DNA of 64,000 nt. It comes from Sphaerotilus mobilis (GTDB taxonomy: Bacteria > Pseudomonadota > Gammaproteobacteria > Burkholderiales > Burkholderiaceae_C). Positions 11,059 through 48,436 of this stretch are shown piece by piece. A model generated the notes under the pieces. That model was not told the origin of the DNA. It worked only from the letters and a program-made list of their open reading frames with translations, and did not search any database. Position 1 is the first letter of the stretch; every line of letters begins with the position of its first letter. A program made the position numbers and the translations under genes. The stretch covers positions 186,001-250,000 of the forward strand of contig NZ_SGWV01000009.1 in the NCBI RefSeq assembly GCF_004216565.1. The letters run 5' to 3'.

Positions 11059-11076
11059 CCTGGCGAGTCAGCGTGC

Positions 11077-11496
11077 TCACCAGCTCCCGACATTGGGCAT
11101 CGACACCCACGGCTCCACCGGCGTCAGCGCCGGGCCGGCCTGCAAGAGCTCGATCGAGATCTGGTCGGGCGAGCGCACGAAGGCCATGCGGCCATCGCGC
11201 GGCGGGCGCAGGATCGTGACGCCGTGTTCAACCAGACGCTGGCAGGTGGCGTGGATGTCGTCCACCTCATAGGCCAGATGGCCGAAGTTGCGGCCGCCCG
11301 TATAGACCTCCGGGTCCCAGTTGTGGGTCAGCTCGACCTGGGCATCGGGCTGGCCCGGCGCGGCCAGGTAGACCAGCGTGAAGCGGCCGGCCGGGGCCTC
11401 GTGCGTGCGGATCACCGCCAGGCCCAGGGCGTCGCGGTAGAAGCGCAAGGAGGTCTCGAGGTCGGTCACGCGGACCATGGTGTGCAGGTAGCGCAT
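11077..11496 (-). CDS. gloA: Lactoylglutathione lyase (glyoxalase I)
   Basis: A 139-residue VOC-fold enzyme that isomerises the methylglyoxal-glutathione hemithioacetal to S-lactoylglutathione. The four metal ligands of the Ni-type bacterial enzyme are all in place: H5 (MRYLHTM), E55 (VELTHNW), H73 (FGHLAYEV) and E116 (ISIELL). Length and start match the E. coli protein. The frame continues upstream to an ATG at 11874, but that part covers the neighbouring transporter gene antisense-like in composition and is not credible. It converges on the HD-GYP gene with only 18 bases between stops. Confidence 0.94.
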
Positions 11497-19131: not shown

Positions 19132-21330
19132 ATGTCCCACCACGGCATCGCCAACCACCCGCCGGCCGCGCACGCGCAAGAGGCCCGGCGCGGCCCGTCG
19201 ACAGGGCCGGCCGCACCCGTCACGACCGCCAGCCGCCTGCGCCCGCTCTGGCTGGTGCCGCTGCTGCTGGTGGCGGTCTTCCTGCTGCTGGTGGTGACGG
19301 CTGCGCCGCTCAACCTGATGGAGCAGGCGGTCTTCGCTGTCATCACGCTGCTGATCGCGATGGTCATCAAGCGCTGGCCCGGCCGCACCGCGACGCTGGC
19401 GCTGACCTGCCTGTCGCTGGTGATGTCCAGCCGCTACCTGTACTGGCGCCTGGCCGAGACGATCGACTACGGCGCCGGCCTCGACACCTTCTTCAGCTAC
19501 GGCCTGATCGCCGCCGAGATCTACGCCTGGCTGGTGCTGGTGCTGGGCTATTTCCAGACCATCTGGCCGCTCGGCCGCAAGCCGGTGGCGATGCCGGCCG
19601 ATCTCGACCTGTGGCCGACGATCGACGTGCTGATCCCGACCTACAACGAGCCGCTCAAGGTCGTGAAGCCGACCGTGCTGGCCGCCCTGGCGCTGGACTG
19701 GCCGCGCGAGAAGATCAACATCTGCATCCTCGACGACGGCCGGCGCGAGGAGTTCCGCGTCTTCGCCGAGCAGGCCGGCGTGCGCTGGATCACCCGGCCG
19801 GACAACCAGCACGCCAAGGCCGGCAACATCAACGCCGCGCTCAAGCAGACCTCGGGCGAGCTGGTGGCGATCTTCGACTGCGACCACATCCCCACCCGCT
19901 CCTTCCTGCAGATGACGGTCGGCTGGTTCCTCAAGGACCGCAAGCTGGCGATGCTGCAGACGCCGCACCACTTCTTCTCGCCCGACCCCTTCGAGCGCAA
20001 CCTGGGCACCCACCGGCGCGTGCCCAACGAGGGCGAGCTGTTCTACGGCCTGGTGCAGGACGGCAACGACCTGTGGGACGCCGCCTTCTTCTGCGGCTCC
20101 TGCGCGGTGCTGCGCCGCGACGCGCTGCTCAAGATCGGCGGCATCGCCGTGGAGACCGTCACCGAGGACGCCCACACCGCCTTGAAGCTGCACCGCGCCG
20201 GCTGGACCACCGCCTACCTGAGCCTGCCCCAGGCGGCCGGCCTCGCCACCGAGAGCCTGTCGGCCCACGTCGGCCAGCGCATCCGCTGGGCCCGAGGCAT
20301 GGCGCAGATCTTCCGCATCGACAACCCGCTGGTCGGACGCGGCCTGAGCCTCGCCCAGCGCCTGTGCTACGTGAACGCGATGCTGCACTTCTTCTACGGC
20401 CTGCCGCGGCTGATCTTCCTGACCGCGCCGCTGGCCTACCTGTTCGTGCAGGCCCACGTCATCAACGCCTCGGCGCTGATGATCGCGGCGATGGCGCTGC
20501 CCCACCTGGTGCACGCCAACATGACCAACTCGCGCGTGCAAGGCCGCTACCGGCACAGCTTCTGGGCCGAGGTCTACGAGACCGTGCTGGCCTGGTACAT
20601 CCTGCGCCCGACCACGCTGGCGCTGCTCAACCCGAAGGCGGGCTCCTTCAACGTCACGCCCAAGGGCGGCCTGGTGGCCTCGCGCTACATCGACTGGCAG
20701 ATCGCCCGGCCCTACCTCTTCCTGCTGCTGCTGAACCTGGCCGGCGTGGTGGTCGGCGGCCTGCGGCTGTTCTGGTGGCCGGACCCGGAGGTCGAGACCA
20801 TCGTGCTCAACCTGGTCTGGACGGCCTACAACATCGTCATCCTGGGCGCCGCACTGGCCGCCGCTGCTGAGGCGCGTCAGGTGCGCGGTTCGCACCGCGT
20901 GCCGCTGGACATCCCGGCCTCGCTGCGCTTGGCCGACGGCCGGCTGCTGCCGGCCCGCACGTCCGACGTCTCCGAAGGGGGCCTGCGGCTGCGGCTGGAC
21001 GAGGCCGTCACGCTCCCGCCCGACAGCGTCGTGCAGGTCGAGCTCTACCGGCGCGGCCTGGCCTCGGCCTTCGATGCCCAGCTGGTCGACGTCGCTGGCG
21101 GCGAGCTGAGGCTGCGCTTCGGGCCGATGTCGCTGGCCCAGGAATCGATGCTGGTGCAGTGCACTTTCGCCCGAGCCGACGCCTGGCTGGCGCGTTCGCC
21201 GCAGCGCGGTGACGACCGACCCTTTGTGTCGATGGGCCGCGTGATGGCCCACGGCCTGCGCGGCTGCGCCCAGCTGCTGCCCTGGCGCCGACAAGGCCGA
21301 CCGGCCGCCGCCGACGGCCCGGACGCCTGA
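19132..21330 (+). CDS. bcsA: Cellulose synthase catalytic subunit (UDP-forming)
   Basis: A 732-residue inner-membrane GT2 glycosyltransferase that polymerises UDP-glucose into cellulose and extrudes it. Catalytic motifs are complete: DDG at 201-203, DxD at 249-251, FFCGS, TED at 344-346 and QxxRW at 382-386. Hydrophobic segments flank the catalytic domain on both sides. A C-terminal PilZ domain (about 580-680) has an RxxxR-type arginine motif and DVSEGG, the c-di-GMP-binding signature, so activity should depend on c-di-GMP. bcsB follows 11 bases after its stop. Confidence 0.97.
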   Translation: MSHHGIANHPPAAHAQEARRGPSTGPAAPVTTASRLRPLWLVPLLLVAVFLLLVVTAAPLNLMEQAVFAVITLLIAMVIKRWPGRTATLALTCLSLVMSSRYLYWRLAETIDYGAGLDTFFSYGLIAAEIYAWLVLVLGYFQTIWPLGRKPVAMPADLDLWPTIDVLIPTYNEPLKVVKPTVLAALALDWPREKINICILDDGRREEFRVFAEQAGVRWITRPDNQHAKAGNINAALKQTSGELVAIFDCDHIPTRSFLQMTVGWFLKDRKLAMLQTPHHFFSPDPFERNLGTHRRVPNEGELFYGLVQDGNDLWDAAFFCGSCAVLRRDALLKIGGIAVETVTEDAHTALKLHRAGWTTAYLSLPQAAGLATESLSAHVGQRIRWARGMAQIFRIDNPLVGRGLSLAQRLCYVNAMLHFFYGLPRLIFLTAPLAYLFVQAHVINASALMIAAMALPHLVHANMTNSRVQGRYRHSFWAEVYETVLAWYILRPTTLALLNPKAGSFNVTPKGGLVASRYIDWQIARPYLFLLLLNLAGVVVGGLRLFWWPDPEVETIVLNLVWTAYNIVILGAALAAAAEARQVRGSHRVPLDIPASLRLADGRLLPARTSDVSEGGLRLRLDEAVTLPPDSVVQVELYRRGLASAFDAQLVDVAGGELRLRFGPMSLAQESMLVQCTFARADAWLARSPQRGDDRPFVSMGRVMAHGLRGCAQLLPWRRQGRPAAADGPDA

Positions 21331-21341
21331 GCCCCGGAGCC

Positions 21342-23729
21342 ATGACCATGACTGCCCGTTCCGCCTCTTTTGCCCGCTACAAGCCCTCCGCCGCCACCTG
21401 CTCGATGGCCAGCGCCAGCGCGCTCGTGCTGCTGCTGTCGATCGCCCCGCCCGGCCTGACACCGGCGCAGGCCCAGACCGGCCGCGTGCTGGCCGCGCCC
21501 GCCCGGGTCGCACCCGCCACGCCGCTGACCGCGCCCCATGCGGTCGTGCTGACGCTCGGCCAGCTCGGCCAGACCGAGCCGCGCCGGCTGCTGCCGCTGG
21601 ACGGCGGCCACACGGTGCCGTTCTCGGTCCGCGCCGACGAGGTCGTGACCCGCCTGGTGCTGCGCCTGGACCTCGGCCTGTCCAGCGAGCTGGCGCTGCA
21701 GCGCGCCCAGCTGCTGGTGAGCGTCAACGACGAGCCGGTGGCCGAGCTGCCGGTCGAGCGCGACGGCAACCTGGCCCGCATGAGCCGCGAGATCGAGATC
21801 GACCCGCGCCTGCTGAGCGACCACAACCGCATCGGTCTGGCCCTGACGATGCCGCGCGAGCGGCTGTGCAACCGCCTCGACCGCGACCGCCTGTGGGCTG
21901 AACTCCAGCCCGAATCGCTGCTGACGATGACGGTGGCGCCGCTGCCGGTGGCCGCCGACCTGGCGCTGCTGCCGGCCCCCTTCTTCGATGCCCGCGACAA
22001 CCGCCGCCTGGACCTGGCGATGGTGCTGCCCGAGCAGCCCGGCCCGCGCCTGTTGCAGGCCGCCGGCGTCATGGCGTCCTGGTTCGGCGCGCAGGCCAGC
22101 TACCGCGGCGCGACCTTCCACAGCCAGCTCGGCGGTGCCTTGCCGGCCTCGCACGCGGTCGTGCTGGCGACCTCGCAGACCGGCGTGCCGGGCGTGTCGC
22201 TGCCGCCCATCGACGGCCCGACCTTGAGCGTGGTCGAACACCCGGCCCAGCCCGGCGCCAAGCTGCTGCTGGTGCTGGGCCGTGACGCCGACGAGCTGAA
22301 GTGGGCCGCCGACGCGCTGAGCCTGGGCCAGCTCGGACGGCCCGGCGACCTGAAGGGCGAACGTGTCCGGGTCGGCCCGCCGCACGCCCTCGCGCCGCGC
22401 AAGCCCTATGACGCGCCACGCTGGTTGCCGACCGACCGGCCGGTGCGCTTCGACGAGATCGAGGCCGCCACGCGCCTGACCGCCGTGGGCCCGCATCCGA
22501 CGCCGTTCAACCTGGCGCTGCGCCTGCCGCCGGACCTGCACTTCGCCCGTCAGGCCAATGTGCCGGTGGATCTGCGCTGGCACCACACGCCGCCGCCGCA
22601 GGCCGACCGCTCGGCCCTGCACCTGGCCTTCAATGGCGCCCCGGTGCGCAGCTACGCGCTCGAACCGACCGGCCGTCTGGCCCTGCCCGACGGCATTGGA
22701 CGGCGCAGCAGCGGCGCCGGGATCGATGCGCTGGAGCAGCGCCACAGCCGCGTCGCCATCCCCGGCGGCCTGGTCAGCCGCCAGCCCGAGAGTCACCTGA
22801 CGATGCGCTTCGACTACGACGCGCCGGTCGACGACCCCTGTGCGGCCACCCAGGCCAGCGGCCAGCAGCGCACCGGCGTGGACGGCGGCTCGACCATCGA
22901 CTTCTCCGGCGTGCCGCACTTCATCGGCCTGCCCGACCTGGCCGCCTTCGCCAACAGCGCCTTCCCGTTCAGCCGCCTGGCCGACCTGGCCGGCACGGCG
23001 GTGATGCTGCCCGACGCGCCGGACACCACCGAGATCGACGTCTACCTGGACCTGATGGGCCACGCCGGACGCAGCACCGGCTTGGCCGGCGTGGCGGTGC
23101 AGGTGGTGCAGGGCCTGGACACACAAGGGCTGCAGGACCGCGACCTGGTCGTCATCGGCACGCCGGCCCGCCAGCCCTTGCTGCGCCAGTGGGCCGATCA
23201 CCTGCCGATGCACCTGGACACCCGCAGCGAACCGCCACCACCCGACCTGTGGCGCCGCCTGATCGGCCTGCTGCCCGGACAGGACAACGGCCCCTTGCCG
23301 ACCTGGCGCACAGCAGCCGGCGGTGCCGCCCTGCTGGGCTTCGAGTCGCCGCTGGCCAGCGGACGCAGTGTGGTCGTGCTGACCGGCAGTGACAGCAGCC
23401 TGCTGCGCAGCGTCAGCAGCCTGTTCATCGAGCCGGCGCTGATCGCCCGCACCCACGGCAGTGCCACGCTGATCGAGGCCGATGGCCTGCGCAGCCTGCA
23501 TGCCGGCGCGACCTATCACACCGGCAGCGTGGGCCTGTTCGACCGGCTGCGCTACACGCTGGCGCAACAGCCCGTCCTGCTGGCGCTGCTGAGCCTGCTG
23601 CTGGCCGTCGTGCTGGCGCTGCTGAGCGCCTCGATGCTGCGCCGCCTGGCCGCCCGCCGGCTGGCCAGCGCCGACGCCCCGCCGCCCGACCCGACCCTGA
23701 TGCGCCCCGCGCCGGAGCCCCGCCCATGA
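21342..23729 (+). CDS. bcsB: Cellulose synthase periplasmic subunit BcsB
   Basis: A 795-residue protein with an N-terminal signal sequence (cleavage after AQAQ near residue 45), a large periplasmic domain of carbohydrate-binding and flavodoxin-like modules, and a C-terminal transmembrane helix (LLALLSLLLAVVLALL) that packs against BcsA. It guides the emerging glucan through the periplasm and is needed for synthase activity. A second ATG at 21348 sits at a better distance (10 bases) from the GGAG site and may be the true start. It overlaps bcsC by ATGA. Confidence 0.93.
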   Translation: MTMTARSASFARYKPSAATCSMASASALVLLLSIAPPGLTPAQAQTGRVLAAPARVAPATPLTAPHAVVLTLGQLGQTEPRRLLPLDGGHTVPFSVRADEVVTRLVLRLDLGLSSELALQRAQLLVSVNDEPVAELPVERDGNLARMSREIEIDPRLLSDHNRIGLALTMPRERLCNRLDRDRLWAELQPESLLTMTVAPLPVAADLALLPAPFFDARDNRRLDLAMVLPEQPGPRLLQAAGVMASWFGAQASYRGATFHSQLGGALPASHAVVLATSQTGVPGVSLPPIDGPTLSVVEHPAQPGAKLLLVLGRDADELKWAADALSLGQLGRPGDLKGERVRVGPPHALAPRKPYDAPRWLPTDRPVRFDEIEAATRLTAVGPHPTPFNLALRLPPDLHFARQANVPVDLRWHHTPPPQADRSALHLAFNGAPVRSYALEPTGRLALPDGIGRRSSGAGIDALEQRHSRVAIPGGLVSRQPESHLTMRFDYDAPVDDPCAATQASGQQRTGVDGGSTIDFSGVPHFIGLPDLAAFANSAFPFSRLADLAGTAVMLPDAPDTTEIDVYLDLMGHAGRSTGLAGVAVQVVQGLDTQGLQDRDLVVIGTPARQPLLRQWADHLPMHLDTRSEPPPPDLWRRLIGLLPGQDNGPLPTWRTAAGGAALLGFESPLASGRSVVVLTGSDSSLLRSVSSLFIEPALIARTHGSATLIEADGLRSLHAGATYHTGSVGLFDRLRYTLAQQPVLLALLSLLLAVVLALLSASMLRRLAARRLASADAPPPDPTLMRPAPEPRP

Positions 23730-26700
23730 CCCCCCGACTCACCGCCCTGGCCGCCGCCTTGGCCCTGGCCGGACTGACCCCGTCGCTGCCGCTGGCGGCG
23801 ACCACGAACGCGCCGGCTGCCACACCCGCCACGGCCACGCCGACCACCGCCGACAGCCCGGCGGTGCGCACCCTGATCGCCCAGGCCCGGCGCTGGCAGG
23901 AACGTGGCCGGGCTGACCTGGCCGCTTCGGCCTGGCGCAAGCTGCTGGCCTTCGAGCCGCAGCATGCCGAGGCGCTGCAGGGCCTGGCCCAGGCCCAGAT
24001 CGATCTCGGCCAGACGGAAGCCGCCAACGACACGCTGGCGACGCTGCGCCGCAGCCATCCCGACTCGCCCGCGCTGCGCCGGCTCGAAGCCCGCCAGCGC
24101 GAGGGCAAGGCCGGCGACAGCAGCCAGCTGCAGAAGGCCCGCCAGTTCGCCAGCGCCGGCCAGTACGACGCCGCCGCGCGCCAGTACGAGCTGCTGCTGG
24201 CCGACCCGAACCCGCAGGGCGCGCTGGCGGTCGAGTACTACCAGACGCTGGCCGGCACCGCCCGCTGGGACGAGGCCCGGCGCGGCCTCGAACGGCTGGC
24301 CCAGGCCGATCCGGATGACGTGCGCACCCGCCTGGCGCTGGCCAAGGTGCTGAGCTACCGCGAGCCCAGCCGCCGCGACGCCATCGCCCGGCTCGCCACC
24401 CTGAGTCAGACGCCCGATGCGGGCGGCGTGGTGTCGGCGACAACGCCCAGCCCGGCCCAGCGCCAGGAGGCGCGCGAGGCCTGGCGCCAGTCGCTGCTGT
24501 GGTTGACCCTGAAGCCCACCGACAGCGCGCTGCTGCGCGATCACCTGGAACAGGCTGGCGAGGACAGCGCCGTGCGTGGTCGGCTCGACGAGCTGCTCAA
24601 GGGCAGCGACGAGGCCCGCCGCATGGCCGAGGCGCGCGAACGCGACCCGCTGGTGCGCAGCCGCCGGCAAGGCTTCGACGCCTTGCAGGGCGGTGAGCTG
24701 GACGCCGCCGCCGAACGCTTCACCAAACTGCTGCAGGCCCGCCCGAAGGACAGCGATGCGCTCGGTGGCCTCGGCGTCGTGCGGCTGCGGCAGGCCCGTT
24801 ACGGCGAGGCCCGCGAGCTGCTCGGACAGGCCGTGGCGCTCAGCGGCGACGCCCGCAGCCCTTGGCACAAGGCCCATGTCAACGCCCAGGTCCGCGTGCT
24901 CTTGCAGCAGGCCGAGACCGCCCGCAGCGCCGGCCGCCACCAGACCGCGCTGGACACGCTGCGGCAGGCCACCGTGCTCGACGCCCGCGACCCGCTGCCC
25001 TGGGTCGAGGCCGGCGACGTGCAGGCCGAACTGGGCCACTGGGCCGCCGCCGAGGGCCACTACCGGACCGCGCAGGCGCTCGAACCGCCCCAGCCGGATG
25101 CCTGGCGGGGCTGGGTCCGGGCGATGCACGCCCAGCGCCGTGGCGACGAGGCCCGGGTGGCGATCGACGCACTGCCCGACACCCGCGCCGGCGCCATCGG
25201 CGGCCGCGAGCCGCTGCTGGCCATGCTGCTGCAGCAAGACGCCGCGCAATCGCAGCAGCGCGGCGAGCTGGCCCGGGCCGAGTCGCAGCTCGACGAGGCC
25301 CTGCGCCTGAACCCGCAGGACCCGTGGTTGCGCCTGAGCCTGGCGCAGCTGCTGACGGCCCAGGGCCGGACAGAGGACGCACGCTGGCTGATGGACGACC
25401 TGGCCGCGCAGAACCCGCGCCGCGCCGATGCCTGGTGGGCGCTGGCGCAGTGGCAGGCCGACCTGCAGCAGCCGGCCGCCGGCCTGCAGGCGCTGGACCG
25501 CATCGCACCGGCCGACCGGCGTCCCGAGATGGCCCGCTTGCACCGCCAGCTGCGCGTGCAGCTCGGGCTGGCGCAAGCGCGCGAGCTGGGCGCTCAAGGC
25601 CAGAGCGTGGCCGCCCTGGCCGCCCTGCAAAGGGCTCAGACCGATGCCGGACGCGAGCCCGAGCTGCTCGCCAGCGTCGGCAACGCCTACGGCGAAGCCG
25701 GCCAGACCGCCCGCGGCCTGCAGCTGCTGCGCACCGCCCTGTCGCAGGAACGCGGCCAGGCGGGCACACGCGACCCGGGCGCGCGGCTGCAATACGCCCA
25801 GTTGCTCGACAACGCCCGTCAGGACAGCGAACTTGCCGGCCTGCTGCCGATGCTGGCCAGCCAGCCGCTGAGCCCCAGCCAGCGCGACCAGCTCGACGGC
25901 CTGCGCGTGGGCCTCACGCTGCGCCAGGTGGACCGGCTGCGCGAAGCCGGCGACACCGCCGGTGCCTACGAGCAGCTCGAACCGCTGTTGAACGAACGCC
26001 CGGGCGACGTCCGTCTGGCGCTGGCACTGGCACGGCTGCACGTCGCGGTCGGCGATCCGGCCCAGGCGCTCGATGTGGTCGACGCGGTGCTGGCGAGCGA
26101 ACCGGCCAACCTCGACGCCTGGCTGGCCCGCGCCAGCGCGGCGACCGCCGCCGACGATGCGGCGCTGGCGCTGGCCTCGCTGGAAGAGGCCAGCCGCCTG
26201 TCGCCGAACAACCCGCGCGTGCTGGCCGAATATGCCCGTCACCACCGCGCCCGTGGCGAACTGCGGCTGGCGGCCGACTACCTGCGTGCAGCCATCGCCG
26301 CGCAGCGGCCGGCCGGCACCCGCGCGCCGCTGCGGCGCGGCCTGGGGGATCGCAGCAACGACCGGATCACCGAACCGGCCCTCGACCGCCCGGCCGAGCC
26401 GTCCCGCGCCTGGGGCCGCCCGATCGCCAGCGACCTGCCCCCGGCCATGCCGGCGCTGGAGCCGCTGCTGTCGGCCCCGACGGCGGCCAGCGGCTCGACC
26501 TCCGCCCAGGCGCTGGGTCATCAGCCCCCGACACGGCCGCTGCGGGGCAGCATCGGCACCGCCACGGGCTCGCCGCAGACCGGTCAGGGCGGCACCGGCA
26601 GCCTGGGAACCAGCAGCCTGGGCACCGCCACCGACGCCTGGTTGCGCGGCGCCGGGGCCGAGCCAGCGGCTGGCGCCCCGACGGGCAACGGCCTGGCGAA

Positions 26701-28111
26701 CGCGCCGCGCGACGAGGTGCGCGCCTGGGACGCCGGTCCGCGCCCGTCACGCAGCCCCGCACCCAGCCTGGCCAGCCCGAACGACCTGCTCGCCGATCTG
26801 CCACCGACCGGTGCCGGTCGCCCCGACCCCAGCGGCATGGCAGCGCCACGATCCGTTCAAACGGCCGCCCCGCTGGTCGCCACCAGCCCGCTGGTCAACA
26901 CGAGCCCGCTGGCGGTGACACCCCGCAGCGCCCTGCCCAAGGGCCTGAACGACGAACTCGCCGAGGTGCTGGCCGAACGGGGCTCGCGTGCCTTCGAAGG
27001 TGGCGCGGCCCTGCGCTGGCGCAGCGGCGACAGCGGCACCTCGCAGCTGGTCGACCTGCGCGCGCCGGTCGGCTTCCAGACGCCGGTGGGCGACGTCGGC
27101 CGGCTGACGCTCCAGGCGGTGCCAACGATGCTCGAAGCCGGCGCGCCCGGTCAGGACGACGACGCCGCAGGCCGCTTCGGCAGTCAGGCGCTCGGCGGCA
27201 CACGCAGCGCCGAATCGGTCAGCGCCTCCGGCGTCGGCCTGAGCATCGGTCTGGCCGGCCGCATGCTGGCCGGCGACATCGGCGTCACGCCGCTGGGCTT
27301 CCCGGTCGTCAACGTGGTCGGCGGCCTGCGGGTCGGCGGCCTGTGGGGCAACCGGCTGGGCTATGGCGCGGAGGTCTCGCGCCGTGCCGTCACCGACAGC
27401 GTGCTGTCCTGGGCCGGCGTGCGCGACCCGCGCACCGGTCAGGTCTGGGGCGGCGTGACCGCCACCGGCGTGCAGGGCTCGCTGAACTGGCGCGGCGACG
27501 ACGGCTTGCAGCTGCTGGCCCGCGCCGGGGTCCACCTGCTGGCCGGCGAGGGCGTGCGCAACAACAGCCGCATCGAGCTGGGTGCGGGCACGCGCTGGCG
27601 CAGCATCGACGAGCCGGGGCGCCGCCTCGAATGGGGCCTGGACCTGAACTACACCCACCACGCCGAGAACCTGCGCCACTTCACGCTCGGCCACGGCGGC
27701 TACTTCAGCCCGCAGCAGAGCATCACGCTGTCGGCCCCGATCGCCCTGATGGGCCAGCGCGCCGGACTGCGCTGGGGCCTCAACGTGGCCCCGGGCCTGC
27801 AGGCCTGGCGCGAAGACAGCGCCCCCTACTACCCGCAGGACGGCGCCGCCCAGCAGCAGCTGAGCAACGCGGTCACGCTCGGTCAGGCGACGTCGGCGAC
27901 GCATGTGGGCCGCAGCTCGATCGGCCTGAGCATCGCGCTGCAGGGCGCGGCCGAATACCGCCTCGGCCCGCAGCTCGCGCTGGGCAGCCGGCTGGCGCTG
28001 GACAACGCCGCCGACTACACGCAGATGAGCGGCGGCCTCTACCTGCGTGTCAGCCTCGACCCGGACAGCGTCGCATCGCCGCTGCGCATGCCGGGATCGA
28101 TGCTGGATTGA
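23726..28111 (+). CDS. bcsC: Cellulose export outer-membrane protein BcsC (TPR plus beta-barrel)
   Basis: A 1461-residue exporter. After a signal peptide (about 1-25) come many tetratricopeptide repeats (about 45-880) that form the periplasmic scaffold. A long Pro/Ala/Gly/Thr-rich linker (about 880-1070) with short GSLGTSSLGTA-like repeats follows, then the C-terminal BcsC barrel (about 1075-1461) ending in an aromatic/charged strand pattern. It is longer than E. coli BcsC (about 1157), mainly through the linker and extra repeats. The start overlaps the bcsB stop (ATGA), so it is translationally coupled. Confidence 0.93.
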   Translation: MTPRLTALAAALALAGLTPSLPLAATTNAPAATPATATPTTADSPAVRTLIAQARRWQERGRADLAASAWRKLLAFEPQHAEALQGLAQAQIDLGQTEAANDTLATLRRSHPDSPALRRLEARQREGKAGDSSQLQKARQFASAGQYDAAARQYELLLADPNPQGALAVEYYQTLAGTARWDEARRGLERLAQADPDDVRTRLALAKVLSYREPSRRDAIARLATLSQTPDAGGVVSATTPSPAQRQEAREAWRQSLLWLTLKPTDSALLRDHLEQAGEDSAVRGRLDELLKGSDEARRMAEARERDPLVRSRRQGFDALQGGELDAAAERFTKLLQARPKDSDALGGLGVVRLRQARYGEARELLGQAVALSGDARSPWHKAHVNAQVRVLLQQAETARSAGRHQTALDTLRQATVLDARDPLPWVEAGDVQAELGHWAAAEGHYRTAQALEPPQPDAWRGWVRAMHAQRRGDEARVAIDALPDTRAGAIGGREPLLAMLLQQDAAQSQQRGELARAESQLDEALRLNPQDPWLRLSLAQLLTAQGRTEDARWLMDDLAAQNPRRADAWWALAQWQADLQQPAAGLQALDRIAPADRRPEMARLHRQLRVQLGLAQARELGAQGQSVAALAALQRAQTDAGREPELLASVGNAYGEAGQTARGLQLLRTALSQERGQAGTRDPGARLQYAQLLDNARQDSELAGLLPMLASQPLSPSQRDQLDGLRVGLTLRQVDRLREAGDTAGAYEQLEPLLNERPGDVRLALALARLHVAVGDPAQALDVVDAVLASEPANLDAWLARASAATAADDAALALASLEEASRLSPNNPRVLAEYARHHRARGELRLAADYLRAAIAAQRPAGTRAPLRRGLGDRSNDRITEPALDRPAEPSRAWGRPIASDLPPAMPALEPLLSAPTAASGSTSAQALGHQPPTRPLRGSIGTATGSPQTGQGGTGSLGTSSLGTATDAWLRGAGAEPAAGAPTGNGLANAPRDEVRAWDAGPRPSRSPAPSLASPNDLLADLPPTGAGRPDPSGMAAPRSVQTAAPLVATSPLVNTSPLAVTPRSALPKGLNDELAEVLAERGSRAFEGGAALRWRSGDSGTSQLVDLRAPVGFQTPVGDVGRLTLQAVPTMLEAGAPGQDDDAAGRFGSQALGGTRSAESVSASGVGLSIGLAGRMLAGDIGVTPLGFPVVNVVGGLRVGGLWGNRLGYGAEVSRRAVTDSVLSWAGVRDPRTGQVWGGVTATGVQGSLNWRGDDGLQLLARAGVHLLAGEGVRNNSRIELGAGTRWRSIDEPGRRLEWGLDLNYTHHAENLRHFTLGHGGYFSPQQSITLSAPIALMGQRAGLRWGLNVAPGLQAWREDSAPYYPQDGAAQQQLSNAVTLGQATSATHVGRSSIGLSIALQGAAEYRLGPQLALGSRLALDNAADYTQMSGGLYLRVSLDPDSVASPLRMPGSMLD

Positions 28112-32322: not shown

Positions 32323-33501
32323 TCAGCGCTCGTTGACCCGCCACGCTTCCTGCAGGGCCGGCGGCAGCGCGAAGGCTTCCTGGCCCCACTCGGGATGCTG
32401 CTTCCAGATCGCGCGGGTGAAGTAGTGGAACAAGGCCTGCGAGAAGCGCCGCACGATCGTCAGCTCCTTGAGGACCTCCACCACGTCGATGACGGCGTTG
32501 GCGATCTTGGCGAAGACGGCCTCGGCCTCGTTCTCGCGCTTGTCCTGGTGCACGCCCAGCAGCGCGGCGTCCTCGTCGCCCATGAGCTGGCACAACATCA
32601 TTTTTGGCAGCGGGTCGAGCGGGCCGGGCAGCGTCTGGACCATCCATTCCAGCATCGCGGCGGTCAGCGCCTGGCCTTCCGGCGAGGCGCCGCGGCGGCG
32701 TGCCTTGATGCGCTCGAACAGCAGCTTGCCGTCCTCGTAGCTGTGCGCCAGCAGGTCGTCACGCACGCCCATGACGTGGCCGATCACGCTCCAGGTGTGC
32801 ATGTAGGCCCGCTGCAGTTCCGGCGCCGGGTGGTAGCCCAGCCGCTCCAACGAGCGCAGACCGACGTAGGAGAAGGTCAGGATCACGAAGGCCATGGCCT
32901 CCTGGTTGATCGGCTCGCCGTGGGCCATGTTCCAGCGCGGCTGGCGCGGCGTGCCGGCGGCCTGTGCGGTCATGGCAGCGCGGTAGTCCGAGCGCAACAG
33001 GTGGCGCACCGCCGCATGCATCAGCCGCACGCGCTGGGCGCAGCGCAGGCCCAGCCCGCCGGTGGTCATGCCGCCGGGCTGCATGACGGTGACGATCATG
33101 TAGGCGGTCTCGAAGATGCGCCGCTCCACATGCTGGAGCAGCTGGGTGGTCGAGGCCAGCACCGGCGCGTCCATCGCATCGAGGTAGCACTCGGGCAGGC
33201 TGGCGCAGCACAACACGGTCGAGGACAGCGTGCCGTGGCTGGAGAAGAACTCCTCGCAGGCCACGATCAGCTGCGGGTCGGCCCAGTCGGGCAGCACCGC
33301 CGTCTCGGCCATGTACTGGTCGACCAGGGCCTGGATGGCCGGATCCAGCGGGCGGTCCGGCCGCGACAGGTTGGCCAGCAAGCGGTTGACGCCGCTGATC
33401 GCGTCGGTCTCATAGATGCGGGCGACGACCGCGTCGGCGATCGGATCGGCCTCGGCGCGCATCGCCTGCAGGTGCTCGTCGGTCCAGCGTTCTTGGCTCA
33501 T
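32323..33501 (-). CDS. DUF2236 / mpaB / latex-clearing-protein-like haem oxygenase
   Basis: A 392-residue helical protein of the ER-bound oxygenase mpaB / rubber oxygenase (Lcp) family. Three residues invariant in the characterised Lcp of Streptomyces K30 (R164, T168, H198) have counterparts at R128, T132 and H162 with exactly the same spacing (RIFET ... RLMHAAVR). That makes b-type haem binding and oxidative C=C cleavage plausible. No signal peptide is seen, unlike secreted Lcp, so the substrate should be intracellular, perhaps an isoprenoid or unsaturated lipid. It lies 56 bases downstream of the cyclase gene on the same strand. Confidence 0.8.
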   Translation of the reverse strand: MSQERWTDEHLQAMRAEADPIADAVVARIYETDAISGVNRLLANLSRPDRPLDPAIQALVDQYMAETAVLPDWADPQLIVACEEFFSSHGTLSSTVLCCASLPECYLDAMDAPVLASTTQLLQHVERRIFETAYMIVTVMQPGGMTTGGLGLRCAQRVRLMHAAVRHLLRSDYRAAMTAQAAGTPRQPRWNMAHGEPINQEAMAFVILTFSYVGLRSLERLGYHPAPELQRAYMHTWSVIGHVMGVRDDLLAHSYEDGKLLFERIKARRRGASPEGQALTAAMLEWMVQTLPGPLDPLPKMMLCQLMGDEDAALLGVHQDKRENEAEAVFAKIANAVIDVVEVLKELTIVRRFSQALFHYFTRAIWKQHPEWGQEAFALPPALQEAWRVNER

Positions 33502-33557
33502 GGTCGGGTCTTCGGGTCAGGGTCGTGGGAAGGAACGGATCGCGGTGACGCCCCGGC

Positions 33558-36500
33558 TCAGGTCGGGCGACGTGCCCGGGCCAGCGCCAGCGCCTGCTGC
33601 AGGCTGCGGGCCTGTTCGAGGTCGGGCGTTGCGGTGGCGTCGGGGATGGCGGCCAGCACATCGTCGAGCAGGGCCTGGGCCGCATGCAGGTCGCCGCGAG
33701 CGGCCAGCAGCGGTGCCAGCCCGCAGGCCGAACGCAGCGCAAAGACGCGGTTGCCCTGGCGCTGCGCCAGCGCCAGGGCGCGGCGGTAGCGGCGTTCGAT
33801 GTCGTCCAGCGCGGCATGGTCGGCCGGCTCGCCACCGCGCAGGCGGTCGAGCCGGATCTGCGCCTCCAGGCGCTCGATCTCGGCCGACATGAAGGACTCG
33901 CCGCCGGCGTCGATCACCTGGCGGGCCTCGTCGAGCCGGGCCAGCGCCCGCTCGGCCGCGCCCTGGCCGGCTTCGACCTCGGCCAGCAGCACGAGGAAGA
34001 AGGGCACCACCATGCCGCTGCCGATGCTGCGGTAGGTCGCCAGCGCCTCCTCGATGTGCTGCGCGCCAGCAGCCGACTGGCCCTCGTCGACCAGGGCCCG
34101 GCCGGCAAAGATCGAGCCCCAGACGGTCCAGAAGCCGAGCGACTGCGCGCTCGACAGCTCGATGGTCGCGGTGGCGTGGTCGGCCATGGCCTCGGGCTCG
34201 CGCCGGTAGGCGTCCAGCCAGGTCGCGCAGCCCAGCGCATAGGCGTGGCTGAAGGGGTGCTTGAGCTCGCCGGCCAGCGTCACCGCCTGACGGGCATGGC
34301 TCAGGCCGGCGCGGGTCTCGCCGCGCAGGAACAGCACCATCGCGGCGACGGCGCGGGCGGTCACGCCCACGTCCTGACCGGTCAGGTGGGCCTGGCCGCG
34401 GTGGCGCTCGGGCACGTACTGCGCGATCGAGGCCGACAGCAGCGCCTGCGCGCTTTCGAGCCGGCCCATGTAGTAGTGGCTCAGGCCGAGCGCGAAGTCG
34501 GCCTCCAGCCGCAGCGAGGCGCTGCCCATGTCGACCGCGATGCCGGACATGCGCTCGGCGAACTCGATGGCGCGGTGCTGTTCGCCCTTGACCAGGTAGA
34601 AGGCCCACAGGCCCCAGACGACCCAGAACAGCTGCGGGTTGGGCCCCACCCGCTCGGACAACACCTGGGCGCGCTGGTAGACGGTGGCGACGGCCGGCGC
34701 GGCCCAGCCCTGCTGGATCGTCAGGGCCACGCCCAGCGTCGACAGCAGCGCCAGTTCGAGCCGGTCACGCTCGGCCGATGCCGGCAGCAGCGCGATCGCG
34801 TCCAGGCCATGGCGCAGATGGCTCTCGGCTTCGGTGGTGGCCGATGAGGCCAGGGCCTGCTGGCCCGCCTGCAACCAGTGCGGCAGGGCCTGGGCGTGCT
34901 GGCCGGCCTTGGTCCAGTGCTGGGCGATGCGTTCGGGGAAGGCCGCCCCGCCCACGCCGGACTGCAGCGCCAGCGCGATGCGCTCGTGGTAGGCCTGCCG
35001 GGTGCGGCGCAGCAGCGAGTCGTAGGCGGCGTCCTGGATCAGCGCGTGCTTGATGGTGAAGCCGCCGTCGGTGGCGAACACGATGCCCTCGCCGATCAGC
35101 TGCTCGACGCCGGTGGTGAGCAGGCGCTCTTCCTCGGGCAACACCGCCAGCAGCAGCTCGAAGGTCCATTCGCGGCCGATGCAGGCGCCCAGCTGCAGCA
35201 CGCGGCGGGCTTCGGGCTGGATGCGGTCCAGCCGCGCCATCAGCAAGTCCTGCAGCGAGGCCGGCACCATCGACTCGGGCAACGGGCCGTCGATCTCGTA
35301 GCCACCGGCCGACTCGCGCAGCGCCCCCGAGTCCAGGAACATGCGCGTCATTTCCTCGACGTAGAGCGGGTTGCCGTCGGTCTTGTCGACCAGCAGCGAC
35401 AGCAGCTTGGCCGGCAGCCGCTTGTTGCCGACGACGCGGTGGATCAACGTCTCGGTGTCGGCCGCCGACAGCACGTTGACGGGGATCAGCGTCAGGTGCT
35501 CGCCATAGAGCCAGGGCGGCGAGAAACCGGGCCGCGAGGTCATCAGCAGCAGCAGCCGGCTGGACGGCAGCTCGCGCAGCAGGTTGCCCAGCAGCTCCAG
35601 CGTGGTGCTGTCGACCCAGTGCAGGTCCTCGACGACCATCAGCGTCGGCCGCAGCGAACGTCGGGCGGCGCCCGAGGTCAGCAGCGTGACCAGCGCCACC
35701 AGGGTCTTCTGCTTCTGCGTCATCGGGTGCAGGCCAAGCGGCTCGTAGCCCGATTCCGGCGCCAGCCCGAACAGCCGCGCCAGCAGCGGCAAGGCGGTGT
35801 CAAGCTCGCAGCCGTGGCGCTGCAGTTCCTCACGCAGGGCGGCCAGCGCCAGCTGAGGCGTGGCGGCCTGCTCGATGCCCAGGCGCTCGCGCATCGCCGC
35901 GACCAGCGGGTAGAGCGCCGTGTGGGCGTAGTCGGGCGAGCAATAACACTCGACGATGTCGCAGGCCCCGTCGCCGATCGAGGCCCGGAACTCCGACAGC
36001 AGACGCGACTTGCCCACACCCGGATCACCGGTCAGCAGCACGGCGTGGCCGGGGCTTTCCTGTGCCGCGACCCAGGAAGACGCCAGGGCGGCGATCGCGC
36101 TGGCCCGGCCGACATAGGGCGCGCGGTGCTGCTGGGCGGCCGCCTCCAGACGGTCGCGCGCGCCGCTGGCGGACTCCACCCGGTAGGCCTCGATCGGCTC
36201 GGCGATGCCCTTGAGCACCTGCCGGCCCAGGCTGCTCATCTGGAAGAAGCCGGCCACCAGGCGCTGCGTGACCTCGCTGACCACGACCGTGCCGGGCTCG
36301 GCGATCTGCTGCAGACGGGCCGCGACGTTGGGCGTGTCGCCCAGCGCCAGCCGGCCGATGCCGGCGCTCGCATCCGGGTCGCCGACCAGCGTCAGCCCGG
36401 TGTTGACCGCGATGCGCACCTGCAGGTCGACGCCGTGGCGGGCCCGCGCCAGCGGTGCCAGGCTGGCGATGGCCTGCACGATGTCCAGGCCGGACTGCAC

Positions 36501-36995
36501 CGCGCGGCGCACGTCGCCCTCGTGGGCCACCGGGTAACCGAAATACACCACGATGCCGTCGCCGTGGAACTGCGCCATGGTGCCGCCGTGGCGTTCGATC
36601 ACGGCCGCACAGGTGTCGCGGTAGCCGCGCACCAGCTCGCGCAGATCCTCCGGGTCAAGCCGCCGGGCCATTTCGACCGAGCCGACCAGGTCGCAGAACA
36701 TGACCGACATGTGGCGGCGCTCGCCAATGTCATCGGCCTCGGCCGGACGGCCCCAGCCGGTGTGGAGCGGGGTCAGCGGCGCGGGCGTGGTCAGGGCGGC
36801 GGGTGATGTCGGCAGCGCCGCCGGGCGCGTCAGCCCGCTGGCGCTGGCCAGCGCCAGGCCGCAGCCATGGCAGAAGCGCGCGCTGGCTTGCACCGGCGTC
36901 TCGCAAGCCGGGCAGGCCAGGTTCTGCGGGGCTCCGCAGTCCGAGCAGAACCGGGCGCCGTCGGCCAGTGGGGCAAGGCACTTGACGCAGTTCAC
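33558..36995 (-). CDS. Class III nucleotide cyclase fused to AAA ATPase and TPR-like domain, with zinc ribbons
   Basis: A 1145-residue multidomain protein. Two zinc ribbons come first (C3/C6/C17/C20 and C28/C31/C42/C45). The class III adenylate/guanylate cyclase domain (about 92-270) keeps the metal Asp residues D102 (MFCDLVGS) and D146 (FHGDG) and the transition-state pair N223/R227 (NVAARL). The Lys of the classic adenine-selecting position is not obvious. A STAND-like ATPase follows, with P-loop 323-330 (GDPGVGKS) and Walker B MVVEDLHW, then a long helical TPR-like C-terminus. GTG at 36995 overlaps the desaturase stop (GTGA) and has a GGAG site. Confidence 0.9.
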   Translation of the reverse strand: MNCVKCLAPLADGARFCSDCGAPQNLACPACETPVQASARFCHGCGLALASASGLTRPAALPTSPAALTTPAPLTPLHTGWGRPAEADDIGERRHMSVMFCDLVGSVEMARRLDPEDLRELVRGYRDTCAAVIERHGGTMAQFHGDGIVVYFGYPVAHEGDVRRAVQSGLDIVQAIASLAPLARARHGVDLQVRIAVNTGLTLVGDPDASAGIGRLALGDTPNVAARLQQIAEPGTVVVSEVTQRLVAGFFQMSSLGRQVLKGIAEPIEAYRVESASGARDRLEAAAQQHRAPYVGRASAIAALASSWVAAQESPGHAVLLTGDPGVGKSRLLSEFRASIGDGACDIVECYCSPDYAHTALYPLVAAMRERLGIEQAATPQLALAALREELQRHGCELDTALPLLARLFGLAPESGYEPLGLHPMTQKQKTLVALVTLLTSGAARRSLRPTLMVVEDLHWVDSTTLELLGNLLRELPSSRLLLLMTSRPGFSPPWLYGEHLTLIPVNVLSAADTETLIHRVVGNKRLPAKLLSLLVDKTDGNPLYVEEMTRMFLDSGALRESAGGYEIDGPLPESMVPASLQDLLMARLDRIQPEARRVLQLGACIGREWTFELLLAVLPEEERLLTTGVEQLIGEGIVFATDGGFTIKHALIQDAAYDSLLRRTRQAYHERIALALQSGVGGAAFPERIAQHWTKAGQHAQALPHWLQAGQQALASSATTEAESHLRHGLDAIALLPASAERDRLELALLSTLGVALTIQQGWAAPAVATVYQRAQVLSERVGPNPQLFWVVWGLWAFYLVKGEQHRAIEFAERMSGIAVDMGSASLRLEADFALGLSHYYMGRLESAQALLSASIAQYVPERHRGQAHLTGQDVGVTARAVAAMVLFLRGETRAGLSHARQAVTLAGELKHPFSHAYALGCATWLDAYRREPEAMADHATATIELSSAQSLGFWTVWGSIFAGRALVDEGQSAAGAQHIEEALATYRSIGSGMVVPFFLVLLAEVEAGQGAAERALARLDEARQVIDAGGESFMSAEIERLEAQIRLDRLRGGEPADHAALDDIERRYRRALALAQRQGNRVFALRSACGLAPLLAARGDLHAAQALLDDVLAAIPDATATPDLEQARSLQQALALARARRPT

Positions 36996-37849
36996 GGGTG
37001 AGGCTCCAGGCGGGGAACGGCGCCGAAGGTGGGCGCCGCTTGAGACGAGGGCGGCTCGGTCCGGACCGGCGCCGCGCGGGTCGGCAGCACATAGGTCGGC
37101 GGCAGCTCGGGCAGCTCCCAGACGCGCAGGCCGGGCCACAGGTGGTGCTCGCGGTGGCGCAGCAGGATCTGCATCGGCTCATGGCCGAACACGCGCCGCC
37201 CGATCGCCACCAGCCAACGCGGCGCCGGCAAGGCATAGGTGCCGTGTTGGCCGTCGCGCTGGTGCAGCAGGTGGTGAAAGATGAAGCCGGACGCACCGAT
37301 GGCCAGCCGCAACACCAGCCAGTAGGTCAGGAAGACCGGCGGGTTGAGCGCCGCGACGGCGACAAAGGCCAGCGCGCGCAGCCCGCCCTGCAGCGCCAGC
37401 GAACGGCTCAGGCCGTGGCGGGCGATCCAGCGCCAGGCCGAGCGCTCCGGCACGATCAGCGCTTGGCCCAGCGCGTGGGCATGGCTGCCGGCGATCTGGA
37501 ACCACTCCGGGTCGTCCGGGCTGGCGCCGTGGCGGTGGTGGGCGAGGTGGATGGTGCGGTGCTCGCGGTAGCCCAGGCCGAAGGGCGTGTCGAAGATCAT
37601 CGCCAGCTGGTGGAAGCCCGGCACCCGGCCGGCGCCGCGCAGGTGCATCAGCTCATGCAGCGCCAGCGCCAGCCGCACATAGACCAGCGGCACGACCGGC
37701 AGCAGCCAGACCGGCGCGAGCCAACCAGCCAGTGCCAGCGCCAGCACGGCATAGAGCAGCAGCGTCCAGGCCAGCGTGGCCCGCAGGTAGTGGCGGCCGG
37801 GGTCGGCGGCGCGCGCCTGTTGGCGCCGGGAGGCCGGGCGGATCTTCAT
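36992..37849 (-). CDS. Membrane fatty acid desaturase/hydroxylase-type di-iron protein
   Basis: A 285-residue integral membrane protein with the three His boxes of membrane fatty acid desaturases: HELMH (65-69), HLAHHRH (101-107) and HREHH (232-236), plus several hydrophobic spans. The ATG at 37849 overlaps the stop of the upstream flavoprotein (ATGA), and its own stop overlaps the cyclase start (GTGA), so three proteins are translationally chained. The substrate could be an acyl chain or a carotenoid/isoprenoid (CrtW/CrtZ-like relatives share the boxes). Confidence 0.88.
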   Translation of the reverse strand: MKIRPASRRQQARAADPGRHYLRATLAWTLLLYAVLALALAGWLAPVWLLPVVPLVYVRLALALHELMHLRGAGRVPGFHQLAMIFDTPFGLGYREHRTIHLAHHRHGASPDDPEWFQIAGSHAHALGQALIVPERSAWRWIARHGLSRSLALQGGLRALAFVAVAALNPPVFLTYWLVLRLAIGASGFIFHHLLHQRDGQHGTYALPAPRWLVAIGRRVFGHEPMQILLRHREHHLWPGLRVWELPELPPTYVLPTRAAPVRTEPPSSQAAPTFGAVPRLEPHP

Positions 37850-38988
37850 GCCAGCACCTCGCCGGCCACGCCGCGCGGCGACAGCAAGGCGCCATAGGGC
37901 GCGCTGCCGAAGATCGCGGCATGCAGGCGGGCCCGCCAGTGCGCCGGGCCACGATCCAGCACGGCGGTGGCGAGGTTCTTGGCCGTCGTGCTCACCAGCA
38001 GGTTGCGCAGCAGCAGCGCCCGGCGCAGCTCCGGCGCGATCTGCTCGGCATGACGGCGGCGCCAGAGCGCGGCGGCGTCCGCGCCGCTGGCGGTGGCCTC
38101 GCCGATGGCGGCGGCGGCCAGCCGGCCGCTGATCAGGGCGTTGCCGATGCCGTCGCCTGTCAGCGGATCGGCCAACCCGGCGGCGTCGCCGATGCGCAGC
38201 ACGCCCGCGTCGACGACCTGCTGGCGCCAGCCGCCGAGCACGACCGGGTAGCCGTGGCGGCGTGTTTCGCCCAGCCGGTGCGGCGCCAGCCGGCGCGCCA
38301 CTGGGTTGTGTTCGAGGAAGTGCGACAGGTAGTCGGTCACGGTCGCGCCAGGCCGGCTGTCGCGCTGCCACAGCCCCACGCCGATGTTGAAGGTCAGCAT
38401 CTGCGCGTCGATCTCGACCGGGAAGATCCAGCCATAGCCGCGCCGGTGCCGGGCATCGGTGTGCAGCGCCACCTCGTCGGCCAGCGCGACGGTGTCCGGG
38501 TGGTGGCGCACGGTCCAGTAGGTCCGCACGCCGACCGCATTGGCGCGCACCGAACCGGCCCCGCGGGCGTCGATCAGGTGTTCGAAGCCGGCCCACTCCG
38601 GATCGCTGCGGTCGACCCGGCGGACGGTGCGCCGGACCAGCCGGCAGCCGGCGCGCACCGCCTGGTCGACCAGCAGCGCGTCGAGGTGCTCGCGCCGGAT
38701 GCAGCGGCCCTGGGGTGCGCTCGGATGCTCGCTGCGCCGGCCGTCGGGCGACACCAGGATGCTGCGCCGGACCTGCGCATGGCCGGGCACCAGCGCGTCC
38801 AGCGCATGCAGGTCCAGCCCGAGGGCGCCCAGCTCGCGCAGCGCGATGGGCGTCAGCCAGTCACCGCAGGTCTTGTCGCGCGGGAAGGCGGACTTGTCGA
38901 ACAGCGTGACCGCATGGCCTTGCAGCGCCAGATGCCGTCCAGCCGCCGCACCCGATGGACCCGCGCCGACGATTGCAATGCAAGCCAT
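37846..38988 (-). CDS. Geranylgeranyl-reductase-like FAD-dependent oxidoreductase
   Basis: A 380-residue flavoprotein of the geranylgeranyl reductase / Rieske-less halogenase-like group. The N-terminal GAGPSGAAAG FAD motif is at residues 8-17, a KTCGDWL segment near 40 is typical of the family, and RIGDAAGLADPLTGDGIGNA is the second FAD motif. These enzymes saturate isoprenoid double bonds or oxidise lipid-like substrates. It is the first gene of a tightly coupled minus-strand operon and is divergent from a cyclic-nucleotide-binding protein gene. Confidence 0.87.
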   Translation of the reverse strand: MACIAIVGAGPSGAAAGRHLALQGHAVTLFDKSAFPRDKTCGDWLTPIALRELGALGLDLHALDALVPGHAQVRRSILVSPDGRRSEHPSAPQGRCIRREHLDALLVDQAVRAGCRLVRRTVRRVDRSDPEWAGFEHLIDARGAGSVRANAVGVRTYWTVRHHPDTVALADEVALHTDARHRRGYGWIFPVEIDAQMLTFNIGVGLWQRDSRPGATVTDYLSHFLEHNPVARRLAPHRLGETRRHGYPVVLGGWRQQVVDAGVLRIGDAAGLADPLTGDGIGNALISGRLAAAAIGEATASGADAAALWRRRHAEQIAPELRRALLLRNLLVSTTAKNLATAVLDRGPAHWRARLHAAIFGSAPYGALLSPRGVAGEVLA

Positions 38989-39230
38989 ACCGGAATCTCA
39001 TCCACGGAGGTTGGGGGGCGCTGGGAAAGGTGCCAGGGGCAGCGCCGGGGCGGCGCCAGAGCGGCGGATGTCGGTGCGAGACCCAGAACAGGCCCCCGAA
39101 CTGAGAAATAGTATCAGCGGCGCTTCGGTTTATCATCTTTGATGGTGCCTGAACGGGCCCGCGACCCTGCTGTCGCGTGCAAGATGACGCAAGCCGTCCA
39201 CGTCCACCCCAGCCAGCCGCGAGTAGCCCG

Positions 39231-39731
39231 ATGACGCACGACAACATCGCCCTGCTGAAGAACATGCCCGTGTTCGACCGGATCTCGGAGGGCGCGCTGG
39301 CCGTGGTCCTGTCCGAGTCCCGCACGATCCGCGTGCCGGCCGGCGACCACTTCTTCCTGCAAGGCGACGAGGCGCTCTACATGTATGTGCTCGTCAGCGG
39401 CGAGGCGAGCGTGCGCAAGTCGTGGACGGACCGCGAGCTGGAGGTGGGCCTGCTGCTGCCGGGCGACTGCTTCGGCGAGGTCGCGCTGATCTCGACCTCC
39501 GGCCGCAGCGCCACGGTGCGCGCCGTGACCGACTGCACCGCGCTCGAGATCTCGCCGCTGAACCTGCAGGTGCTGCGCGAACGCGACGTCGACCAGTTCA
39601 TCGAGATCCAGATGAACCTCTCGCGCGAACTCTGCCGCCGCCTGTTGCTGTCGGACGCCAGCCGGATGCTCATCACCGAACCCCATCCCAAGACGGACGA
39701 GGGCGGGCTGAGCTGGCCGCTGCTGTCCTGA
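39231..39731 (+). CDS. Cyclic-nucleotide-binding domain protein without DNA-binding domain
   Basis: A 166-residue protein consisting almost only of a cNMP-binding domain. The phosphate-binding cassette keeps FGE (81-83) followed by ALI and RSAT (92-95), the pattern of cAMP binders such as CRP. The C-terminal part is a short helical tail, with no helix-turn-helix. The ATG at 39231 was chosen; an upstream GTG at 39177 would add 18 unlikely residues. Its divergent position next to an operon with a class III cyclase suggests it reads that cyclase's product. Confidence 0.85.
   Translation: MTHDNIALLKNMPVFDRISEGALAVVLSESRTIRVPAGDHFFLQGDEALYMYVLVSGEASVRKSWTDRELEVGLLLPGDCFGEVALISTSGRSATVRAVTDCTALEISPLNLQVLRERDVDQFIEIQMNLSRELCRRLLLSDASRMLITEPHPKTDEGGLSWPLLS

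Positions 39732-44224: not shown

Positions 44225-48436
<4,212 letters not shown>

Follow-up and report, generated by a model that had tools for sequence, protein, structure and literature searches.

What is the role of a nucleotide cyclase gene in an operon of isoprenoid- and lipid-type redox enzymes? The locus that raises this question lies in the genome of Sphaerotilus mobilis (Burkholderiales; RefSeq assembly GCF_004216565.1), at positions 186,001 to 250,000 of contig NZ_SGWV01000009.1, a stretch of 64,000 nucleotides that we call the window. It consists of four co-directional genes, which encode a geranylgeranyl-reductase (GGR)-like flavoprotein, a membrane desaturase-type protein, a large protein with zinc-ribbon, class III cyclase, AAA and TPR-like parts (hereafter the cyclase protein) and a DUF2236 oxygenase, and of a divergent gene for a stand-alone cyclic nucleotide monophosphate (cNMP)-binding domain (Table 1). 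This arrangement had been described in an earlier note made from the sequence, and it was confirmed: the five genes lie at the coordinates given there, the bases ATGA at 37846-37849 are common to the stop of the GGR-like gene and the start of the desaturase gene, GTGA at 36992-36995 is common to the desaturase stop and the cyclase start (both read from the sequence), and a gap of 56 bases lies between the cyclase stop (33558) and the DUF2236 start (33501).

The gene module is real, and we did not find it described in the searchable literature; none of the titles and abstracts that came up in open-licence PubMed Central (PMC) links a cyclase to DUF2236 or to GGR. As detailed below, the DUF2236 oxygenase is often kept beside a signalling protein in related bacteria, which hints at an undescribed control of isoprenoid-type lipids. 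We tentatively propose, with a confidence that falls somewhat short of even, that the genes of the operon form a module which tailors an unsaturated lipid of the isoprenoid type and is coupled to signalling. The module may be a single instance of something wider, as DUF2236 oxygenases and signalling proteins are also paired in other members of this bacterial family.

Recurrence of the gene set

The supposition of the earlier note that the cyclase belongs with the lipid-redox genes is borne out by the recurrence of the four-gene set in a Rubrivivax metagenome-assembled genome (contig JALHMT010000020.1, locus L028; Table 1) and by two further loci, L070 and L096, at which DUF2236 stands beside a class III cyclase/AAA gene. 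L028 was the sole locus obtained when genome contigs were scanned with the GGR protein; the ATGA overlap of desaturase and cyclase is kept there, the coupling of GGR and desaturase is not. With regard to conservation beyond close relatives, the exact set is thus rare, although the one other genome that carries it is not a genus mate, and the rarity may be overstated, as the search was a pattern search that reaches close GGR relatives only. The Rubrivivax contig also carries a second cyclase/AAA/TPR gene (173-3760), a gene for a 155-amino-acid protein beside DUF2236 (3777-4244) and, beside the GGR gene, a caspase-domain gene (PF00656; 11182-12039) that is truncated by the contig end.

Table 1. 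Genes and intergenic region of the operon locus in the window, and the corresponding genes of locus L028
Locus	Feature	Position	Strand	Basis or identity
Window	DUF2236 (MPAB/Lcp-type) oxygenase, 392 aa	32323-33501	-	PF09995, Lcp alignment
Window	Zinc-ribbon / class III cyclase / AAA_16 / TPR-like protein, 1145 aa, GTG start	33558-36995	-	PF12773, PF00211, PF13191
Window	Membrane desaturase/hydroxylase-type protein, 285 aa	36992-37849	-	PF00487, His boxes
Window	GGR-like FAD protein, 380 aa	37846-38988	-	TIGR02032 below cut-off, motifs
Window	Divergent intergenic region, 242 bases, presumed control region	38989-39230	.	
Window	Stand-alone cNMP-binding domain protein, 166 aa	39231-39731	+	PF00027
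L028	DUF2236	4275-5489	-	47% identity to window
L028	Cyclase	5514-8870	-	73% identity to window
L028	Desaturase	8867-9724	-	67% identity to window
L028	GGR, divergent	10001-11110	+	66-67% identity to window

The encoded proteins

The family labels proposed earlier stood for the cyclase protein, the desaturase, the oxygenase and the cNMP protein, all of which pass Pfam cut-offs, whereas the GGR label fits only in part (see below). PF09995 was found in the oxygenase with 66.8 bits (cut-off 23), and phmmer aligned this protein with Lcp (5o1m/5o1l) at an E-value of about 5e-13, with 51.8 bits a distant match. Counted on the alignment, Arg164, Thr168 and His198 of Lcp K30 correspond to R128, T132 and H162 of the oxygenase, which are invariant in 11 of 11 aligned rows; PMC5522427 describes these three residues, which lie near the haem, as important in Lcp.

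In the cyclase protein PF12773, PF00211 and PF13191 lie above the Pfam cut-offs (52.9 vs. 21.9 bits for PF00211), while TPR_12 is below its cut-off here and above it in the L028 orthologue. Class III cyclases use two metal-binding aspartates and an asparagine/arginine pair that acts on the transition state, and a lysine together with a threonine or aspartate specifies adenine. In alignments with 3r5g and 1wc1, both metal aspartates and the asparagine/arginine pair are kept. The desaturase scores 41.8 bits against PF00487 (cut-off 29.7), with the histidine boxes HELMH, HR..HL.HH, HHLLH and HR.HH common to the window and L028, and the GGR-like protein contains the motifs GAGPSG and YGWIFP. Protein searches of a plasmid collection with the desaturase and the GGR-like protein gave one distant match each, the nearest plasmid-borne desaturase homologue (31% identity) lying 1.1 kb from a terpene synthase gene. 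A Fischerella plasmid (L029) carries, at 5719-8606, a terpene synthase gene, a DinB-like gene and the 31% desaturase homologue in a row.

The DUF2236 oxygenase and its signalling neighbours

Matches to DUF2236 were present in 17 genomes of a 150-genome sample of the family (own genome counted), and 17 non-own loci were examined with flanks of up to about 10 kb, some of them cut short by a contig end. A division at E < 1e-20 into 14 closer and three weaker loci was set after the fact (the 15th stands at 5e-20), and counts are hence given per 17. At 12 of the 17 loci (L083-L093, L095) a co-directional 7TMR-DISM-GGDEF gene follows directly downstream of DUF2236, an assignment that Pfam confirmed in all nine proteins scanned (in L093 the second of two tandem copies). 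The intervening gaps were measured in ten cases; nine of them span 12-56 bases and the tenth 215, the ends at L088 and L091 being estimated. The GGDEF signature is intact at eight of the 12 loci (in both copies of L093). Elsewhere the signalling neighbour is of another kind: L096 has a 1376-amino-acid class III cyclase/AAA protein and L094 a hybrid histidine kinase, each convergent with DUF2236, and at L070, which was found from the cyclase side, DUF2236 lies directly upstream of the gene for the cyclase/AAA protein.

A CruF-like gene, of the type that acts in carotenoid synthesis, was detected by tblastn at eight of the 17 loci (L085-L089, L092, L093, L096), and PF04240 was confirmed in all four of the genes scanned (L085, L088, L096, L089). 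In L089 (8624-10771) the CruF-like (PF04240) and DUF2236 domains are fused in one frame of 715 amino acids, which suggests that both domains may act on a common isoprenoid-type substrate.

Outside the family, DUF2236 was found at six loci in five genomes among 350 genomes of the class (own genome counted). A divergent PAS-GGDEF gene accompanies DUF2236 at L119 and a histidine kinase lies nearby at L120; at L122 a single small gene separates DUF2236 from a gene for a GGDEF-EAL protein. L121, L123 and L124 were seen by eye to have no signalling gene as direct neighbour. Because these neighbours are not uniform, we regard the linkage of DUF2236 with signalling as a trait of this family's clade and not of DUF2236 at large. 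In a tree of 24 DUF2236 rows, from which L098 and L099 were left out, the window and L028 group together (support 100/99) outside a clade of 15 rows (100/99) that consists of the 12 GGDEF-linked genes, L094, L070 and L096, the last two being sisters (94/98). The starred branches of this tree require no fewer than two changes to account for a class III cyclase as partner of DUF2236; the deeper placing of the window and L028 is unsure owing to long outgroup branches.

Neighbours of cyclase relatives

In a 399-genome sample of the family the best other cyclase protein is 38% identical to that of the window. With the two best candidates scored per genome, 30 of the 399 genomes (own genome counted) match at 1e-120, and 20 of the 31 non-own matches listed were examined. 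At L070 a 722-amino-acid flavoprotein is convergent with the cyclase; L064 has a CRP-type gene upstream and two flavoproteins downstream, the second of which, judged by its start, resembles the L070 flavoprotein. L072 combines a polyprenyl synthetase with a flavoprotein that among NCBIfam models matches HpnE best (95.7 bits, cut-off 283), and L082, the same locus as L127, a polyprenyl synthetase with an HpnE-like flavoprotein four genes from the cyclase (103.5 bits, cut-off 283). Polyprenyl synthetases above the Pfam cut-off adjoin the cyclase at these two of the 20 loci. Their best NCBIfam match, below cut-off, is f2_encap_cargo4, a model for the cargo of family 2 encapsulins. A flavoprotein lies next door also at L068, L078 and L080, that of L068 belonging to the GGR/hydroxylase superfamily (TIGR02032, 102 bits, cut-off 158.8), L079 has a flavoprotein of the tryptophan-halogenase type, and the neighbours at the remaining loci are varied. 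By eye, radical-SAM-like and flavin-halogenase-like genes beside the cyclase/AAA/TPR gene give L073 and L079 the look of a LodA/LodB-type cofactor system.

Altogether, flavoproteins make up six of the 29 genes directly adjacent to cyclase relatives, as counted with a simple gene caller, with L063, L074 and L075 dropped from the 20 loci for want of a usable call and with an adjacent call at L073 that seems to be a flavoprotein gene read on the wrong strand. Among 80 control genes at least four positions off, no flavin family is found among the 25 commonest of 168, and one to three flavoproteins were assumed; at least one control gene, that of the L082 flavoprotein (the gene at L127:4140-6380), is of the kind sought. 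Fisher's test gives p = 0.004 for two control flavoproteins and 0.010 for three. As some of the loci are orthologous (L068, L078 and L080 look like one), this excess is suggestive, not strong.

The proposed module and its alternatives

In the tailoring module that we propose, the GGR-like flavoprotein would reduce (or oxidise) double bonds of an isoprenoid embedded in the membrane, the desaturase-type membrane protein would hydroxylate or desaturate the same molecule, and the DUF2236 haem oxygenase would attack or cleave a C=C bond. The cyclase protein would serve as a large sensor of the STAND-like kind: its ATPase/TPR part would respond to a cue by switching the class III cyclase, and the activity or expression of the module might then follow a local nucleotide signal. 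The proposal draws on the observed gene content and junctions, on the conserved active-site residues, on the set in L028 and on the frequent pairing of DUF2236 with signalling proteins; the CruF-like, polyprenyl synthetase, HpnE-like and terpene synthase genes noted above also speak for it. The isoprenoid substrate, the haem, the cyclase activity, the direction of control and the nucleotide are parts of this proposal that we infer. One could extend it to a general and so far undescribed design in the family: an enzyme for isoprenoid double bonds (a CruF-like hydratase, a GGR-like reductase or a carotenoid-desaturase-like flavoprotein) and a haem oxygenase of the DUF2236 type would be wired to a dedicated, exchangeable sensor (7TMR-DISM-GGDEF or class III cyclase/AAA/TPR). 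Membrane isoprenoids would in this way be remodelled oxidatively under the control of a signal, and the product might be the ligand that the sensor reads; we offer this extension as speculation and with low confidence.

A number of observations weigh against the proposed module. The four-gene set was found in one other genome only, where the GGR gene is oriented differently, and among the gene calls of the window we saw neither a prenyl synthase gene nor a carotenoid gene next to the operon. The GGR-like protein scores 148.3 bits (E 3.7e-43) against TIGR02032, for which the cut-off is 158.8, and 20.7 bits against PF22578 (cut-off 27). No strong homologue of the desaturase exists in 149 other genomes of the family (besides the own genome, two of the 150 match, at E 5e-4 and 9e-4) or in 12 genus mates, and in samples of the class and the phylum only weak matches appeared (four of 369 and five of 383 genomes, own genome counted in both). 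In the oxygenase, Met110 aligns with Glu148, which we take to be a key residue of the Lcp rubber oxygenase. Glu131 aligns with Lys167, a residue of note in Lcp according to PMC5522427; neither of the two Lcp residues is conserved in this alignment. Structure predictions from two-row alignments were useless, with a mean predicted local distance difference test score of 37.2 for the oxygenase and 47.4 for the desaturase. As for the neighbourhoods, the weakest DUF2236 matches in the family (L097-L099) and most of the six loci outside it have no signalling partner next door, and no flavoprotein beside a cyclase relative reaches the HpnE cut-off, the matches at L064 and L070 being weak and restricted to the first ~80 residues. 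The GGDEF signature is missing at four of the 12 GGDEF loci (L085, L087, L088, L089), which form one tree clade and all have a CruF-like gene, so that synthesis of cyclic di-GMP is unlikely there. Finally, at the adenine-selecting positions the cyclases of the window and L028 have glutamine for the lysine and leucine for the threonine of CyaC/CyaB. With both positions changed, cyclic AMP (cAMP), the product assumed earlier, is weakly founded and not assured. The lysine position holds glutamine in 15 of 20 cyclase relatives and lysine in two (L065, L069), with three (L074, L081, L082) left unresolved by the pattern; being common across the subfamily, glutamine need not signal decay. Rv0386 of Mycobacterium tuberculosis is an active cyclase with glutamine at this position.

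These two exchanges also speak for a different reading of the cyclase protein, as a STAND-like regulator or an assembly scaffold for the enzymes, in which the cyclase fold would be a nucleotide-binding or dimerising module and no messenger would be made. The lack of a conserved receptor gene, the winged-helix domain Trans_reg_C in four of the 29 genes adjacent to cyclase relatives and the four parallel GGDEF partners without a signature point in the same direction; we nevertheless give this reading a distinct but minor chance, since the metal aspartates and the asparagine/arginine pair are kept and the GGDEF signature is intact at most of the parallel loci. It is also conceivable, if unlikely, that four accessory genes were moved by one transfer, the cyclase being a promiscuous regulator and the DUF2236-GGDEF linkage elsewhere unrelated. 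The neighbouring HAD gene has merely short, weak matches in the genus (five of 13 genomes, own genome counted), and without a close genus match to this gene the operon stretch, a few kilobases away from rpoC (identified by eye at 44225-48436), is accessory. Such an incidental cluster would fit the occurrence of the exact set in two genomes only, the absence of the desaturase from genus mates, the many different neighbours of cyclase/AAA relatives and the position of the DUF2236 genes of the window and L028 outside the GGDEF-linked clade. However, a set kept at 47-73% identity together with its desaturase-cyclase overlap implies long retention, DUF2236 stands beside a class III cyclase in a second clade too, and flavoproteins are more frequent beside cyclase relatives than was assumed for the controls.

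The earlier note had gone further and assumed a five-part circuit, in which the adjacent cNMP protein would read the cyclase output and control the enzymes. The divergent position of its gene, with a start 242 bases from that of the GGR-like gene, and an FGE...GRSAT cassette in its sequence agree with such a function, and the protein is indeed stand-alone, with PF00027 (68.2 bits) as its only Pfam domain and no helix-turn-helix. Against this, L028 has no cNMP match on its contig, which ends 0.9 kb past the GGR gene. Matches of some kind occur in 13 of 13 genomes of the genus, but those of 47-52% identity are confined to four mates (G150, G151, G153, G157) and to another position in the own genome. 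A comparison of the genes called between 20 and 50 kb in the window with these five sites (E 1e-15) gave matches to the cNMP protein alone, apart from an unrelated periplasmic-binding-type gene at one of them. The homologues thus sit among other genes, away from the operon, and the circuit is therefore not supported; we consider it improbable, and judging from these comparisons the cNMP protein is probably a bystander and not a dedicated part of the operon. A role in defence or conflict, with cyclase and cNMP receptor acting as in Pycsar, is very improbable and was rejected. The cyclase domain does match PycC models (3.4e-14) and the cNMP protein Pycsar TIR-effector models, and a caspase-like gene lies beside the L028 module. 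The effector match, though, is confined to the nucleotide-binding part, Pfam detects neither a TIR domain nor an effector domain of another kind, no counterpart of the L028 caspase turned up in the window's own genome (in a search without positive control), and the three redox enzymes match no PADLOC model.

Junctions, control region and surroundings

The earlier note had taken the stop-start coupling as a sign of fixed stoichiometry, which was not borne out: overlaps of one or four bases are commonplace (38 of 309 co-directional neighbour pairs at loci L063-L099, as called by a simple gene caller), and the ATGA and GTGA junctions therefore tell us little about it. The cNMP gene starts at the ATG at 39231, with a GTG at 39177 as upstream alternative. 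No promoter was recognised in the divergent region when 38800-39400 was scanned for the sigma-70 consensus. A CRP-site pattern had fewer matches in the window than expected by chance (75 vs. 141), and control by cAMP-CRP is consequently not claimed. Further away, a run of cellulose-synthase-like genes of the bcs type was seen by eye at 19132-28111, and a tRNA-Trp called by ARAGORN at 26125-26221, inside a long gene on the opposite strand, is probably spurious.

Significance and comparison with known systems

To our knowledge, few DUF2236 proteins have a known function beyond rubber cleavage and mycophenolic acid synthesis, and we know of no input or output for most class III cyclase/AAA/TPR proteins. 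The repeated pairing of oxygenase and signalling protein beside isoprenoid-type enzymes provides each of the two orphan families with a partner that can be tested, and it suggests that the oxidative editing of membrane isoprenoids may be under the control of nucleotide signalling.

Several described systems share parts with the operon. The cyclase, AAA and C-terminal regions of the TOMM kinase/cyclase model TIGR03903 align over residues 86-1091 of the cyclase protein (498.9 bits), but the score is below the cut-off (705.75), the match begins at model position 278, and zinc ribbons stand in place of the kinase, for which no Pfam family was found; a role in TOMM biosynthesis was rejected on these grounds. 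The likeness to Pycsar consists in a cyclase plus a cNMP-binding protein, which in contrast to Pycsar has no effector domain here. Family 2B encapsulin loci, with a cNMP-binding shell and terpene or polyprenyl cargo, are a precedent for a link between cyclic nucleotide binding and isoprenoid enzymes. The cNMP protein matches encap_f2b over the binding domain; with its 166 amino acids it consists of this domain only and has no shell part. With LcpK30 and other MPAB_Lcp proteins the oxygenase shares PF09995 above cut-off and the equivalents of Arg164, Thr168 and His198, and it differs from LcpK30 by its distance (51.8 bits), by Glu131 in place of Lys167 and by its operonic position with a cyclase and isoprenoid-type enzymes. 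The DUF2236 loci with 7TMR-DISM-GGDEF genes in the same family have a membrane receptor instead of a soluble class III cyclase/AAA protein, a CruF-like enzyme instead of the GGR-like protein and the desaturase, and a DUF2236 gene of another clade; in common with the operon, the oxygenase adjoins a signalling protein, often together with an isoprenoid-type membrane enzyme.

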